A DNA stretch of 64,000 nucleotides from assembly GCF_014840935.1 (NCBI RefSeq), contig NZ_CP062005.1:2232001-2296000 (forward strand). The letters run 5' to 3'. Shown piece by piece: positions 140 to 27,052 of the stretch. The stretch's first letter is position 1, and every line of letters begins with the position of its first letter. This DNA is from Halomonas sp. YLGW01 (lineage in GTDB: Bacteria > Pseudomonadota > Gammaproteobacteria > Pseudomonadales > Halomonadaceae). The notes beneath the pieces are model-generated. The model saw nothing but the letters and a program-made list of their open reading frames with translations. It did not search any database and was not told the DNA's origin. The position numbers were made by a program, and so were the translations under genes.

Positions 140-189
140 GATCTGTCTCCTCCCGGGCAATTGGAATCGAGGAATCCGGGCGTTGTACG

Positions 190-657
190 TTAGCGACCGG
201 CCTCGCTGGCCAGGGTCACGGATTGAATGGGAAGCCTGACCGGCAACTTGATCGGCGTGGTCTCGGCCAGATGCGCCAGGGTCACGCTGTCGAGCAGGGT
301 GCGCACCGCAAGCGACACCCGTTGCCAGTTGTCGGACACCCCGCAGGTCGCGGCGAGATCGCAGTCGCCATCGTCCTGGCTGCACTCGGTCATGGCCACC
401 GGGCCTTCGATGGCGGTGATGATGTCGATGGCGCTGATCTGGGAGGCCGGCCGCGCCAGGCGGTAGCCGCCCTGGGCCCCGCGCTGAGACAGCAAGAGCC
501 CCGCCCGCACCAGCATCTTCAGCGTCTTGCTCACCGTAGGGTGCGGCAGCTGGACCGCTTCGGCCAGCTCGGCGGCGGCATGCGGCTGCTCCGGGTGACG
601 GGCGATCTGCGCCATGACCACAGCGGCATAATCGGTCAAGCGGGACAGTTTCAGCAT
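190..657 (-). CDS. Rrf2-family Fe-S sensing regulator of the suf operon
   Basis: A 155-residue Rrf2/IscR-type transcription factor, first gene of the suf operon. Residues 1-65 form the winged helix (MLKLSRLTDYAAVVM start, TVSKTLKMLVRAGLL recognition region). Three cysteines, C92, C99 and C105, match the cluster ligands of IscR (C92, C98, C104), so a [2Fe-2S] cluster is likely. The family usually represses its own operon when iron-sulfur supply is adequate. The frame stays open another 57 codons upstream, but the ATG at 657 begins the conserved domain and lies downstream of a good promoter. Function as a suf regulator is inferred from family and position. Confidence 0.92.
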   Translation of the reverse strand: MLKLSRLTDYAAVVMAQIARHPEQPHAAAELAEAVQLPHPTVSKTLKMLVRAGLLLSQRGAQGGYRLARPASQISAIDIITAIEGPVAMTECSQDDGDCDLAATCGVSDNWQRVSLAVRTLLDSVTLAHLAETTPIKLPVRLPIQSVTLASEAGR

Positions 658-22254: not shown

Positions 22255-23958
22255 GGCCAGGCTCTCGGCGGTGACGTTGGCGGCCGCCGGCTCGTCGGCC
22301 AGGTGGCGGTTGAGCGCGCCCATCACGCCTTTCATGGAGGCGGCGGTGATGCTCTCGTCGATGCCTACGCCGAAGATCGCCTCCTCGCCGACACGCACCT
22401 CGACGTAGGCGATGGCCTCGGCGTCGGCACCCTGCCCGCGGGAGTGCTCGTGGTAGTCGATGATCTCGGCATCCACGCCGTGCGCCACCAGCGCCTTGAT
22501 GAAGGCGGCCAACGGTCCATTGCCCTCGCCACGGATGGTCTGACGCTCACCCTGCTGCTCGATCAGCGCCTCGAGATGCACCCGCGGGCTGTCCGGCTCC
22601 GAGGACAGGCGATGGTTGATCAGGCCATAGGGCGCGTCCTTTTCCAGGTATTCGTCGCGGAAGGCCTGATAGATCATCTGTGAGGTGATCTCGCGACCGG
22701 TGCGATCGGCGACCTCCTGGACCACCTGACTGAACTCGATGGACAGGCGGCGCGGCAGCTCGATGCCGTGCTCCTGCTCGAGCAGGTAGGAGATGCCGCC
22801 CTTGCCGGACTGGCTGTTGACGCGAATCACCGCCTCGTAGCTGCGGCCGACGTCCATCGGATCGATGGGCAGGTAGGGCACCTCCCACACCGCGTCCGGA
22901 TTGTCACGGCGCAGGGCCATGCCCTTCTTGATGGCATCCTGGTGGGAACCGGAGAAGGCCGTGAACACCAGGTCACCAACGTAGGGATGGCGCGGGTGAA
23001 CCGGCAGCTGGTTGCAGTGCTCGACCTCACGCATGATCGGGGTGATGTTGGAGAAGTCGAGCGCCGGGTGCACGCCCTGGGTATAGAGGTTCATGGCCAG
23101 GGTGACGATGTCGACGTTGCCGGTGCGCTCGCCGTTGCCGAACAGGGTGCCCTCGACACGATCGGCGCCCGCCATCACGGTCAGCTCGGCGGCGGCCACG
23201 CCGGTGCCGCGGTCATTATGCGGGTGCACGCTGACGATCAGGTGATCACGATGGCTGATGTGACGGCAGAACCACTCCACCTGATCGGCATAGTTGTTCG
23301 GGGTGGCGCATTCCACGGTCGCCGGCAGGTTGACGATCATCGGCTTCTCGGCGGTGGCGCCGTAGGTGGCCATGACCGCGTCGACGATCTCGACGGCGAA
23401 ATCCATCTCGGTGGTGGTAAACAGCTCCGGCGAGTACTGGAAGGTCCAGTCGGTTTCCGGCGCCTCCTCCATGCGCTGGCGGATCAGGGCGGTGGCATCA
23501 CAGGCGATCTTGATGCAGTCGCTCTTGTCGACATTGAACACCACGCGGCGGAACACCGGATCGGTGGCATTGTAGACGTGCACGATGGCCTTCTTCGCAC
23601 CCTTGAGGGCCTCGAAGGTACGGTCGATCAGATGCGGACGCGCCTGAGTCAGCACCTGGATGGTCACATCGTCCGGCACCAGATCATCCTCGATCAGCTC
23701 GCGGGCAAAATCGAAGTCGATCTGGGAGGCAGACGGGAAGCCGATCTCGATCTGCTTGAAACCGACCTTGACCAGCAGATCGAAGAAACGCTTCTTGCGC
23801 TCGAGATCCATCGGATCGATCAGCGCCTGATTGCCGTCGCGCAGGTCCACGCTGCACCACAGCGGCGGCGTCTCGATACGCCGGCTGGGCCACTGGCGAT
23901 CGGGCAGGTCGACGGCGACGAAGGGACGGTACTTGGTGGACGGGTCGGCGAGCATCAT
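22243..23958 (-). CDS. leuA: 2-isopropylmalate synthase, type II (LeuA2)
   Basis: First committed step of leucine synthesis, condensing acetyl-CoA with 2-oxoisovalerate; usually inhibited by leucine. The 571-residue protein has the type II N-terminus ([20 protein letters not shown], residues 32-51), the catalytic TIM barrel with [18 protein letters not shown], and a C-terminal LeuA dimer regulatory domain. The ATG at 23958, immediately followed by another, has AGGAG 8 bases upstream. It stands alone, far from leuBCD. A leucine-rich leader peptide and a strong hairpin precede it, indicating attenuation control. Confidence 0.96.
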
Positions 23959-24003
23959 GGCGTGAACTCCTGGCGCGGGGCGAGTGATGGCGTGTACATA
24001 CGA

Positions 24004-24039
24004 CGACGCCCCGGCTGCGAAGAGCAGGCCGGGGCGTCG
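24004..24039 (-). promoter_or_regulatory. Strong hairpin in the leuA leader
   Basis: A perfect 12-bp stem, CGACGCCCCGGC / GCCGGGGCGTCG, with a 12-base loop lies 45 bases before the leuA start. It is the strongest structure in the leader, but TCGTATG follows on the leuA strand instead of a U-run. It could be a Rho-assisted attenuator or a block near the ribosome site. A smaller 7-bp hairpin (24187-24203) follows the leader peptide directly. Confidence 0.5.
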
Positions 24040-24212
24040 GTCGGGGAAAATCGGCAAATGGCGGATACGCGGCGATAGCCTCGAGGGTCGCAGACCCGGG
24101 ACACCGCGGTGACGCATACGCTTGACGACATGTGACTGGTGGACATCTTGCTACCTCAACAACCTGAACGATCTCGACTCGAGAATGCGACGCACGGCGT
24201 CGCCCGGCGGGC

Positions 24213-24272
24213 TCAAAGGCCGGCTAGTAGTAGTCGTAGATCTAGGCGGAGTGCAGAAGAAGTCGTGTTCAT
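24213..24272 (-). CDS. leuL: Leucine-rich leader peptide of leuA
   Basis: A 19-codon frame, MNTTSSALRLDLRLLLAGL, lies 254 bases upstream of leuA in the same direction. Seven of 19 residues are leucine, five encoded by the rare CTA codon, with three CTA in a row. This is the hallmark of ribosome-mediated attenuation, as in enterobacterial leuL. A second in-frame ATG at 24278 would add two residues. No clear ribosome site is seen. A consensus TTGACA lies at 24302-24307 at the end of the channel gene; a promoter there would start transcription almost at the leader ATG, so leaderless translation is possible. Confidence 0.8.
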   Translation of the reverse strand: MNTTSSALRLDLRLLLAGL

Positions 24273-24307
24273 AGGCATAGCAAATCAGCCCGGGGCGCCC
24301 TTGTCAA

Positions 24308-25135
24308 CTAGCGCTCTCGGGACAGCCCCTCCTCGAGGCGGGCGATCTGCTCGCTCAGGGCCCTGACATCGTGGCGCAGGGCATGCAGCTCGCCCGCTTC
24401 GCCGGTCCCCGTCTCGATCTCCATCTGAACACTTTCTTTTTGCATCACGTCCAGCACGATGCCGATCATCATGTTGAGGAAGATAAAGGCGGTCAGGAAG
24501 ATGAAGGTCAGGTAGTACAGCCAGCTCCAGGCGTGCAACTCCTGGGTGGCGTACATGACATCGGTCCAGTCCTCGAAGGTGGCGATGCGAAACAGCGTCA
24601 GCATGGCGACGGAGATGTTGTCCCACAGGAAGGGGTCGACCTCGTGAAAGAGGAAGCTACCGAGGGCCGCATAGATGTAGAAGATGATGAACATCAGCAG
24701 GGCCACGTAGCCCATGCGAGGGATCGACTTGATCAGCGCTGCCAGCAGAATGCGCAGTTCGGGAATCAGCGACACCAGGCGCAGCACCCGGAAGACCCGC
24801 AGCAGGCGCGCCAGCAACACCATTTCCGAGTCGTCCAGCGGGATCAGACTCGCCGCGACGATCAGGGTATCGAAGATGTTCCAGCCGCTGCGGAAGAAGT
24901 CTCTCACCGAGCGCTCGGCGGCCAGGCGGATCAGGATCTCGGCGAGGAAGAAGAGCGTCACTGCCCAGTCGAAGTAGTAGAGCGCCTGCTCGAAACGACT
25001 GGTCTGTTCCTCATAGGTCTTGGCGCCGATCAGCAGGGCCGAGACGATGATGATGGCGATCACGCAGGTCTCGAACAGCTTGTTGGCGCGCAGGCGCTCG
25101 AAGCGGGCCTGCCAGGTGTTGAAGGGCTCACTCAT
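24308..25135 (-). CDS. Voltage-gated cation channel of the bacterial NaChBac/NavAb family
   Basis: A single-domain six-transmembrane channel of 275 residues, expected to be tetrameric in the inner membrane. S1-S3 cover about residues 22-100. S4 is at about 105-125 with R110, R113, R116 and R119 at every third position. S5 is about 140-163, the pore loop about 175-192, and S6 about 204-232. The selectivity filter reads TFEDWTD (186-192), not the sodium-type TLESWSM of NavAb. The C-terminal 30 residues form a heptad coiled coil that would hold the tetramer. It stands alone between the leu leader and a divergent cyclase gene. Ion selectivity is not known from sequence alone. Confidence 0.88.
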   Translation of the reverse strand: MSEPFNTWQARFERLRANKLFETCVIAIIIVSALLIGAKTYEEQTSRFEQALYYFDWAVTLFFLAEILIRLAAERSVRDFFRSGWNIFDTLIVAASLIPLDDSEMVLLARLLRVFRVLRLVSLIPELRILLAALIKSIPRMGYVALLMFIIFYIYAALGSFLFHEVDPFLWDNISVAMLTLFRIATFEDWTDVMYATQELHAWSWLYYLTFIFLTAFIFLNMMIGIVLDVMQKESVQMEIETGTGEAGELHALRHDVRALSEQIARLEEGLSRER

Positions 25136-25276
25136 CGGGGGATTCCAGCTCAGGTCTCACGGGAGGCCGCCCGGTCGGACCCGAGCGGCAAGCGCCCGAG
25201 AGGATAGCACGACATGGCCGCTCACTAACGACGGCGACCAGGCATCTGCTATCGTCGAGCCATATCATACGGCAGT

Positions 25277-27052
25277 ATGAAGATAGCGCGTCTGTCTGTT
25301 GCCTTCCCTCATGAGCGGGCACCGACGACGACCGAACATCACGACTCCGCGAGTTCGCCCATGACGCCCGATGCCTGGCTCGTTCACGCCGCCGCCCTCC
25401 ACGACGATGTCTACCTGCTGCTCGACGAACGGCTGCAGGTCACCCGCCAGCTGGGCCACCTGCCCGAGGGCCCCGCCGAGCCGTTGCCCGAGACGGCACT
25501 CAGCGCCTGTGTCGCCCCCGAGAGCGCAGAGGCCCTGGAGACCACCCTGTCGAGCCTACTGGCCGAGCGCCAGTCCGGAGAGATCACGACCCGATGGCCT
25601 GATGGCAGCCAGACCCTCTGGCGCGCCGCCCCTGCCGCCACCGCGGGGGTGGTGTTGAGTCGGGTACGAAGCCAGCGGGCACCGTCGGAGGGTGGTGCCC
25701 TGATGTCGATGGTCGATGCGCTGCCGATGATGGTGGCGAGCGTCGATGCCGAGCTGCGCTACCGTTTCGTCAATGCCAGCTACGAGAACTTCTTCGGCCA
25801 CTCCCGGGACGCCCTTCGGGGCCGGCATATCGAGACGATCCTCGGCGAGGCCGCCCTGAACCGGCTGATACCGATCTACGAGCGGGTCCTGGCCGGCGAG
25901 CAAATGCAATTCGAGGAGGCCCTGCCCCTGAGAGACGGCAGCACCATGGAATGCCGAATCCAGTACGTGCCGGACAGGGCGCCGGACGGCCGCGTGACGG
26001 GCTTCTTCGCGGCCATCGAGGACGTCAGCGAGTATGGAGCGACCATCCGGCTGCTTAAGCAGGTGCACCACATCGTTCACGACACCCCCATCGAGCATGA
26101 AGGCACCGTCGATGAACTCCTGACCCTGGCGCTGGACTACCTGGGCCTCGAGATCGGCATCATCAGCCAGGTCAGTGGTGACACCTACACGGTGCGCCAT
26201 GTCGTCAGCCAGCACCCCGATCTCAAGGCCGGGACCCAGCTTCCTCTGGGAGACACCTTCTGCTGCCTGACGCTCCAGGCCGATGGCGTGCTGGGCACCG
26301 TTCGGGCCGGCGAGCACCCGCTGTTCCGGGGCCATCCCTGCTATCGCCACTTTCCGCTGGAAAGCTACATCGGCGTGCCCCTGATCATCGATGGCGGTGT
26401 CTGGGGCACCCTCAACTTCTCGAGCACCGAACCGCGCCGGGCTCCCTTCAACGAGCTGGAGAACGAGCTGGTGAGGCTGGTCGCCAGCGCCGCCGAACAC
26501 CTGATTGCCGCCCAGCTGCAGGCCAGCCGCTGGGCGCACGAGCGGGAACACATCACCAGCCTGGCCTTCACCGATGCCCTGACGGGCCTGCCCAACCGGG
26601 CGGCGCTCGATGAGCAGCTCGACACAGTGGCGGCTCAGGGCACCATGCACGACCACCAGTCAAGCGTCGCCATCATCGACATCGACCACTTCAAACGGGT
26701 CAATGACAACCACGGTCACGACATCGGCGACCGGGTCCTGCGAGCCCTGGCCGGCCGGCTGGCGCAGACGGTACGCGACGGCGATGTCATCGGGCGACTC
26801 GGCGGCGAGGAGTTCATGGTCATCATGAGCGACACCTCTCTCGAGGCCGCCACGGACATTGCCGAACGCCTGAGGCAGGCTATCCAGACCATGCGCGTGC
26901 CCATGGGCGATCAGGCGCCGCTCGCCATCACGATCAGCCTGGGCGTCACCGTTACCCGCCCCGATGACACCCCGGAGCAGATTTACCGGCGCGCCGACCG
27001 CGCCCTCTATGCCGCCAAGCATCAAGGACGCAACCGGGTCGAGGTCCGATAA
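25277..27052 (+). CDS. Diguanylate cyclase with PAS and GAF sensor domains
   Basis: Predicted to make cyclic di-GMP from two GTP. The 591-residue protein has no membrane segment. After a poorly conserved N-terminal 140 residues comes a PAS domain (about 145-255, RYRFVNASYENFFGHSRD), then GAF (about 260-415, with ESYIGVPLIIDGGVWGTLNFSS), then GGDEF (about 425-590, FTDALTGLPNR, DIDHFKRVNDNHGH, signature GGEEF at 509-513). The signature is active-type. The start is uncertain: ATG at 25277 or ATG at 25361, neither with a good ribosome site. Signal unknown. Confidence 0.88.
   Translation: MKIARLSVAFPHERAPTTTEHHDSASSPMTPDAWLVHAAALHDDVYLLLDERLQVTRQLGHLPEGPAEPLPETALSACVAPESAEALETTLSSLLAERQSGEITTRWPDGSQTLWRAAPAATAGVVLSRVRSQRAPSEGGALMSMVDALPMMVASVDAELRYRFVNASYENFFGHSRDALRGRHIETILGEAALNRLIPIYERVLAGEQMQFEEALPLRDGSTMECRIQYVPDRAPDGRVTGFFAAIEDVSEYGATIRLLKQVHHIVHDTPIEHEGTVDELLTLALDYLGLEIGIISQVSGDTYTVRHVVSQHPDLKAGTQLPLGDTFCCLTLQADGVLGTVRAGEHPLFRGHPCYRHFPLESYIGVPLIIDGGVWGTLNFSSTEPRRAPFNELENELVRLVASAAEHLIAAQLQASRWAHEREHITSLAFTDALTGLPNRAALDEQLDTVAAQGTMHDHQSSVAIIDIDHFKRVNDNHGHDIGDRVLRALAGRLAQTVRDGDVIGRLGGEEFMVIMSDTSLEAATDIAERLRQAIQTMRVPMGDQAPLAITISLGVTVTRPDDTPEQIYRRADRALYAAKHQGRNRVEVR

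Follow-up and report, generated by a model that had tools for sequence, protein, structure and literature searches.

The window, a stretch of 64,000 nucleotides from the salt-loving bacterium Halomonas sp. YLGW01, carries a channel gene whose protein matched the Pfam family Ion_trans with 156 bits (cut-off 25). The positions given for the gene in an earlier note on this DNA were right, and the coding strand is the minus strand (Table 1). Full-length matches with 93 to 100% identity were found in seven of seven genomes of the genus, the window's own genome included, and dN/dS values against six congeners, two of which gave identical values, were 0.037 to 0.047. The channel gene is a real gene under strong purifying selection. 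A plus-strand reading at 24371-25207 was rejected as a spurious open frame opposite the gene; the minus strand encodes the 275-residue protein.

Table 1. Features of the channel gene and its predicted protein, with positions in the window
Feature	Positions	Strand	Basis
Gene for a voltage-gated cation channel with one domain and six helices (275 aa)	24308..25135	-	ORF, Pfam, full-length matches, dN/dS
Voltage-sensor helices S1-S4, residues 19-122	24770..25081	-	AlphaFold2 model helices
S4 arginines R110, R113, R116 and R119 within residues 106-122	24770-24820	-	Invariant alignment columns
Pore cassette (residues 168-215), from the outer loop through P1 helix, filter and P2 helix to the start of S6	24491..24634	-	Block difference between EDWTD and ESWATA orthologues
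R183 on P1 helix, position of NavAb Gln172	24587..24589	-	Filter-linked Arg/Gln
Selectivity filter TFEDWTD, residues 186-192	24560..24580	-	Alignment reading and DNA pattern
C-terminal helix, residues 246-274	24314..24400	-	Predicted helix (AlphaFold2 model)

The AlphaFold2 model of the protein (mean pLDDT 77, pTM 0.56) showed six helices in the membrane, a P1-filter-P2 loop and a helix at the C terminus, and its ten-residue blocks from 141 to 230 had pLDDT values of 84 to 95. Residues 246-274 are presumably a coiled-coil-like tail resembling that of the BacNavs. In a Foldseek search, NavMs, NavRh, CavAb, NavAb and NaChBac were all matched with a probability of 1.00, with modest TM-scores of 0.43 to 0.56 by query length among the 50 rows listed. 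The four S4 arginines claimed in the earlier note were present and invariant in an alignment of 26 sequences, and its reading of TFEDWTD at residues 186-192 was confirmed by the alignment and the DNA pattern. The S4 charges, P-loop, S6 and fold are those of the six-helix voltage-gated channel superfamily, and the claim of a BacNav-superfamily channel with a filter unlike that of NavAb was borne out by the Ion_trans match, the fold and the alignment. The description of the filter as calcium-channel-like also held, as it has EDW, three acidic residues and the post-filter length of Cav3 repeat I.

Annotation with NCBIfam and Pfam placed leuA downstream of the channel gene on the same strand, and a gene for a PAS-GAF-GGDEF protein upstream on the opposite strand, with serB beyond it. 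No Rfam match was found in 23800-25500, and neither sigma-70 promoters nor terminators were found by scans of 23900-25400. A phage search with the channel gave no match, and a plasmid search gave 38 records, every one below 60% identity. Between the channel stop and leuA lies an ORF of 19 codons, MNTTSSALRLDLRLLLAGL (24213-24272, minus strand), with seven leucines, five of them as CTA codons, and without an Rfam match; it looks like a leucine attenuation leader peptide. Two further proteins of the host genome matched Ion_trans: a potassium-type channel with GYGD and, below the threshold, a voltage-sensor-like protein. A protein of 331 residues at L003 916-1911 (G000 contig 1, ~651 kb) has an S1-S4-like stretch, RLLRILRVISLLHRL, and matched only the first half of Ion_trans, at 22.5 bits (cut-off 25), without an NCBIfam match; it is possibly a pore-less voltage-sensor protein.

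Family placement and frequency of the acidic filter

The best one-domain match in the PDB was NavRh (217 bits), followed by NaChBac (170 bits), the 4bgn channel (160 bits) and NavMs (at most 146 bits). The top PDB score, 267 bits for the four-repeat Cav3, is a sum over six stretches and is explained by several stretches adding up. Class A is the group of the window channel (at least 44% identity to the window protein), and class B is a second group with EDWTD (34 to 40%, mostly TLEDWTD). A quick tree of 95 rows with midpoint root was built with NavAb, NaChBac, NavRh and 32 canonical-type channels; it included 19 class B rows and roughly one half of the EDWTD rows of class A. A single split with starred support of 99 separated class A, NavRh and one NavRh-like row from class B, the canonical channels, NavAb and NaChBac. 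The window channel thus grouped with NavRh, away from NavAb and NaChBac. The NavRh-like row, L088 (G338, a gammaproteobacterium, filter TMSSWEN), joins NavRh with starred support of 99, and both have long branches.

Shimomura and coworkers (eLife, 2020) named a group of ancestor-like BacNavs AnclNavs, among which the passages seen of that paper count CavMr, NavPp and members from H. elongata and T. turnerae (PMC7041947). The window channel is of this already described type, as it lies on a branch apart from the Bacillus and NavAb-like BacNavs and has a TLESW-related filter with more acidic residues; the TLESWS-type filter and NavAb-type loop length of canonical BacNavs were absent from it. Its tie to CavMr and NavPp runs through the H. 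elongata protein, which was placed among the AnclNavs with a filter called similar to that of NavPp (PMC7041947) and which we take, from this placing rather than from its sequence, to be orthologous to the window gene. NavPp, compared by filter only, may be closer to class B than to class A. The presence of EDWTD on both sides of the split fits the proposal of TLED/SWTD as the ancestral filter (Liebeskind 2013, as quoted in PMC7041947).

Like the other AnclNavs, the window channel has one domain and extra acidic residues in a TxExW filter. By filter, it differs from NavPp (TLEDWTD) at position 2 only, whereas CavMr (TLEGWVD) has Gly at position 4 and Val at position 6. NavRh (PDB 4dxw) matched its fold at 42 to 44% identity and lies on the same side of the split, but has the filter TLSSWE and Gln at the R183 position. 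NavAb, NavMs and NaChBac (28 to 37% identity in the fold-search rows) share the fold, the Arg-rich S4 and the filter Trp, but have an ESW filter and a loop one residue longer, and NavAb has Gln172 and Arg185 where the window channel has R183 and Y195. The analogy drawn in the earlier note with the engineered TLDDWSD of CavAb was inexact: acidic residues at positions 3, 4 and 7 are common to both, but the window channel has Glu at position 3, Thr at position 6, R183 and a pore loop one residue shorter than the NavAb type. The Cav3 repeats resemble it in the EDW of repeat II and in the equal loop length of repeat I (TLEGWVDIMY), but they form four linked repeats and lack Arg at the R183 place in repeats I-III; the PDB alignment stretches of Cav3.2 have Gln there in repeats I and II and Val in repeat III.

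A class-wide sample gave a match at 1e-15 or better in 98 of 369 genomes. Of 58 relatives, 51 gave a match at 0.001, but just 31 reached 1e-30 or better; the weak match that this search gave in the window genome itself was the GYGD channel. The filters of 117 different homologous proteins (90 of the 109 class-wide matches and 30 loci of the relatives, two of them shared) were read at the aligned place, where 52, including the window's own, had TFEDWTD and 20 had TLEDWTD. The 19 class-wide matches left out were all below 137 bits, in the range of canonical channels, so the canonical counts are partial. The TFEDWTD motif is not due to chance, and the acidic filter is ordinary in the sampled Gammaproteobacteria. 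Because such filters are common there and were already published as AnclNavs, among them a cloned but silent channel of H. elongata, the view that the channel is notable for being native was weakened. In one gammaproteobacterium (L076 1400-5497, G128), a class A channel and a different class B channel, both with EDWTD, lie about 2.5 kb apart on one contig.

Ion preference of the EDWTD filter

The nearest functional data come from passages of the AnclNav study (PMC7041947). NavPp, with TLEDWTD, preferred Na+ (PCa/PNa 0.308) and was blocked by Ca2+; it was still blocked with the artificial-Cav filter TLEDWSD, and such filters are described there as giving NavPp no Ca2+ permeability. CavMr, with TLEGWVD, was Ca2+-selective. 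The glycine at position 4 was presented as key in CavMr and NavPp, and the G4D change, which makes position 4 acidic, lowered the Ca2+ selectivity of CavMr. Glycine at this position, which is linked to Ca2+ selectivity in CavMr and also stands in Cav repeats I and III, is replaced by Asp in the window channel. Phe at position 2, as in the window channel, occurs in some BacNavs and AnclNavs, and the corresponding NavAb mutant L176F showed no block by itself in the passages seen of Irie et al. 2023 (PMC10349818).

The NavPp data argue for Na+ conduction with Ca2+ block over Ca2+ selectivity. In our best reading, the window channel would be voltage-gated and Na+-permeable, with divalent block or mixed permeability, and no dedicated Ca2+ channel; a filter that resembles those of calcium channels is probably not enough to make it one. 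It belongs to the EDWTD type within the one-domain BacNav superfamily and is predicted to assemble as a homotetramer, in which depolarisation would move the four S4 arginines and open the TFEDWTD-lined pore, as its anatomy suggests. It would conduct mainly Na+, with weak discrimination between monovalent and divalent ions and low-affinity external Ca2+ block, because the extra aspartates are proposed not to form a free Ca2+ site.

A native Ca2+-selective or strongly Ca2+-permeable channel, in which the three acidic residues of each subunit would bind Ca2+ and keep Na+ out, is a doubtful reading, although one that retains some weight; it would mean depolarisation-driven Ca2+ entry. The filter has the Cav length, EDW and an acidic position 7, and aspartate at HFS+1 was classed as Ca2+-selective or Ca2+-blocked in the scheme of Spafford 2023, as far as its passages go (PMC10120453). 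CavMr given the TLEDWTD filter still had a PCa/PNa of 13.8 (PMC7041947), so the window channel may yet be permeable to Ca2+. Against this reading are the Na+ preference and Ca2+ block of NavPp with nearly the same filter, the failure of TLEDWSD to change this, the requirement of CavMr for Gly at position 4 and the absence of Arg at the R183 place from Cav3.2 repeats I-III. The native calcium channel proposed in the earlier note was therefore not supported, given the behaviour of NavPp and of the less Ca2+-selective CavMr G4D.

It is improbable that the protein is non-conducting by itself, or conducts only at high salt or with a particular lipid or partner, and so acts as a voltage sensor or conditional channel. 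The same passages (PMC7041947) describe the AnclNavs of H. elongata and T. turnerae as silent in Sf9 cells, as this reading would have it. However, the pore and S4 hallmarks of the window channel are kept and its gene is under strong purifying selection. BacNavs are often silent in heterologous hosts, which also counts against a non-conducting protein.

Two filter states in one Halomonadaceae gene

In Halomonadaceae and neighbours, the orthologous gene has either EDWTD or ESWATA, the latter one residue longer and thus of NavAb loop length. Searched with DNA patterns, 201 genomes of the family gave TFEDWTD in 47 and the TFESWAT type in 70, and no genome of the 201 matched both. One genome counted among the 70 (G489) reads ETWAT and may be a chance match, because its genus group is otherwise without either pattern. 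Three genus groups (g9, g11 and g20) hold both states. The named loci, the 80 best from a scan of 473 relatives, comprised 35 EDWTD, 42 ESWAT and 3 ESWT loci; H. elongata does not figure among these 80. In flanks of at most 2.5 kb a side, leuA and/or serB homologues (at least 60% identity) were found on the channel's strand at 20 of the 35 EDWTD and 25 of the 42 ESWAT loci, and the three ESWT loci had neither; four serB matches at 64 to 67% identity may be another phosphatase. Channel rows from other families were without these neighbours. The leuA/serB flanks at both states argue for one orthologous locus in Halomonadaceae. The two filter states in this orthologous gene are new, the acidic filters themselves being known: no report of two filter states in one orthologous BacNav gene was found by titles and passages in a search that most subscription papers lay outside, and a literature search with filter strings found nothing. 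A third state, ESWTQ, ESWTA or ESWTS with the EDWTD length and with R183 kept, was seen in L179, L181 and L187 (Idiomarina and Aliidiomarina) and in L018; these ESWT forms are possible intermediates between the two cassettes.

Covariation was examined in 80 proteins with at least 64% identity to the window protein (48 ESWAT and 32 EDWTD). Six columns separated the states perfectly, namely residues 169, 183, 189, 192 and 196 and the inserted residue after W190. The next-best columns (176, 184, 194, 198, 200, 202-204, 208 and 215) also lie inside residues 168-215, and every column outside this range had at most 0.35 of the maximum mutual information. Among pairs that are 90 to 95% identical outside the cassette, identity inside was 95% for the same state (85 pairs) and 68% for different states (21 pairs).

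The states interleaved in trees built without the pore. In a tree of 139 rows without residues 178-207, ESWAT needs eight changes (at least seven by starred branches), and in a tree of 97 rows without residues 165-220, it needs 11 (at least seven). In the latter, built under a plain LG+G4 model with the bootstrap not settled, a single ESWAT clade was rejected (p-AU 4e-21, log-likelihood 324 lower); the tested group was set by filter, after the 139-row tree was already known. Mixed nodes joined the EDWTD rows L130 and L132 with the ESWAT row L157 (support 95/97), the EDWTD row L137 (Billgrantia gudaonensis) with the ESWAT row L020 (99/98), and three EDWTD rows of Marinobacterium with three of the ESWAT state, from Nitrincola and two others (100/98). 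The window lineage lies in a mixed clade of 66 rows with support of 28/75, at which kept and regained EDWTD are not separable. When the pore was included, in the full-length 95-row tree with only 10 ESWAT rows, ESWAT formed one clade with starred support of 99.

A close pair was mosaic at the DNA level. For L133 (Halomonas gemina, EDWTD) and L161 (Halomonas sp. LBP4, ESWAT), identity in 15-codon windows was 87 to 98% at starts 56-146, dropped to 67% in the filter window (186-200) and further to 58% at 191-205, rose to 98 to 100% at starts 211-221 and was then 84 to 93% to the end. A second, shallower dip (76 to 84%) was seen at residues 41-65, in the S1-S2 region. Codon-level bins of chosen pairs gave the same overall trend as the 15-codon windows, less sharply. 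In protein, the two agree at 194 of 218 residues outside 165-220 and at 37 of 56 inside; L137 and its sister row L020 gave equal counts. In the two highest identity bins that held at least two pairs, different-state pairs had a lower synonymous identity within the cassette than elsewhere in the gene (0.538 versus 0.629 for 117 pairs and 0.384 versus 0.487 for 21 pairs), whereas same-state pairs showed no cassette deficit. All seven nested EDWTD rows have the motif YATQE after the filter and thus share a derived marker; of the distinct rows with EDWTD, 24 of 83 have this motif, and of the ESWAT rows, none of 51.

These patterns suggest that the pore is an exchanged cassette in the Halomonadaceae channel gene. 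Other Halomonadaceae carry a Nav-like cassette (Q183, TFESWATA, one residue longer) in the orthologous gene. We tentatively propose, as a serious possibility short of the probable, that the cassette of about 50 residues has repeatedly been replaced by recombination at one locus with the voltage sensor unchanged, toggling between R183 with EDWTD (Cav-like, Ca2+-blocked or Ca2+-permeable) and Q183 with ESWATA (Na+-selective), driven by ionic habitat. Between Vreelandella-type and Halomonas EDWTD rows, synonymous identity was 0.455 in the cassette and 0.447 outside; with no cassette excess between same-state rows of different lineages, no donor was identified. The ESWATA cassette was 61% identical to class A EDWTD and 42% to canonical channels, and probably did not come from a NavAb-type gene, since it is nearer to the former; EDWTD cassettes were 34% identical to canonical channels, below the value for ESWATA.

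Repeated parallel mutation under selection, without recombination, would account for the missing synonymous excess, and the ESWT forms of L018 and the Idiomarina and Aliidiomarina rows resemble possible intermediates for it. We consider this unlikely, because an insertion would have to arise again and again together with changes at many linked positions, YATQE is common to the nested EDWTD rows and absent from ESWAT rows, the L133/L161 identity drops and recovers around the filter, and the synonymous deficit appears only in different-state pairs. An origin of EDWTD and ESWATA as ancient paralogues that were lost differentially, with no cassette exchange, would fit the wide spread of both states and the single ESWAT clade of the full-length tree, but this was rejected as highly improbable, as none of the 201 genomes matched both patterns, leuA and/or serB lie near many loci of both states and the states interleave once the pore is removed.

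R183 and the matched pairs

How a homotetrameric pore chooses Ca2+ or Na+ is an open question. Added aspartates made CavAb Ca2+-selective, but NavPp prefers Na+ in spite of aspartates of this kind. Matched pairs with different filters exist among the Halomonadaceae orthologues (L133/L161 and L137/L020), and these orthologues name R183 as a candidate residue that could account for aspartates alone failing. Related species with either filter in apparently one gene would be a natural test of ion choice, and cassette toggling, if true, would mean that the NavAb-to-CavAb experiment has been run in nature, and more than once. What most deserves attention is the apparent exchange of filters within one orthologous gene, and it is directly testable if the channels conduct.

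R183 lies three residues before the filter. Arg was found at this place in 72 of 72 different EDWTD survey proteins, a count that includes near-copies and the window's own, and in 35 of 35 EDWTD named loci, and Gln in 42 of 42 ESWATA named loci (best 80 loci), 10 of 10 ESWATA survey proteins and 32 of 32 canonical-type channels. In NavAb, according to passages of one study (PMC12919392), Gln172 bonds the main-chain carbonyl of Glu177, Arg185 holds Gln172, and Gln172 faces Met181 of the neighbouring subunit; in S178G, Met181 (filter position 7) shifted towards that Gln172, and Q172N gave no current. In the alignment, the window channel has Y195 at the Arg185 place, and D192 falls on position 7 (Met181) by count or on Gly182 by the one-residue gap, so its placement is uncertain.

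R183 on the P1 helix may thus hold the filter backbone, neutralise D189/D192, or both, and such a role is probable by analogy with Gln172. Its covariation with the filter makes R183 a candidate charge partner for the extra aspartates. Partly neutralised aspartates would explain the failed Ca2+ selectivity of NavPp, provided that NavPp has the same arginine. Taken as a whole, the account of a tetrameric, Na+-preferring channel with Ca2+ block, a role for R183 and an exchangeable cassette is our best explanation, and we hold it to be reasonably probable. All four ESWT proteins, which are without the two aspartates, have Arg at the R183 place, and R183 is therefore not strictly in need of the aspartates. 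A divergent class A channel from another gammaproteobacterium (L071, G218) has the filter TFDNWAH and Gln at the R183 position.
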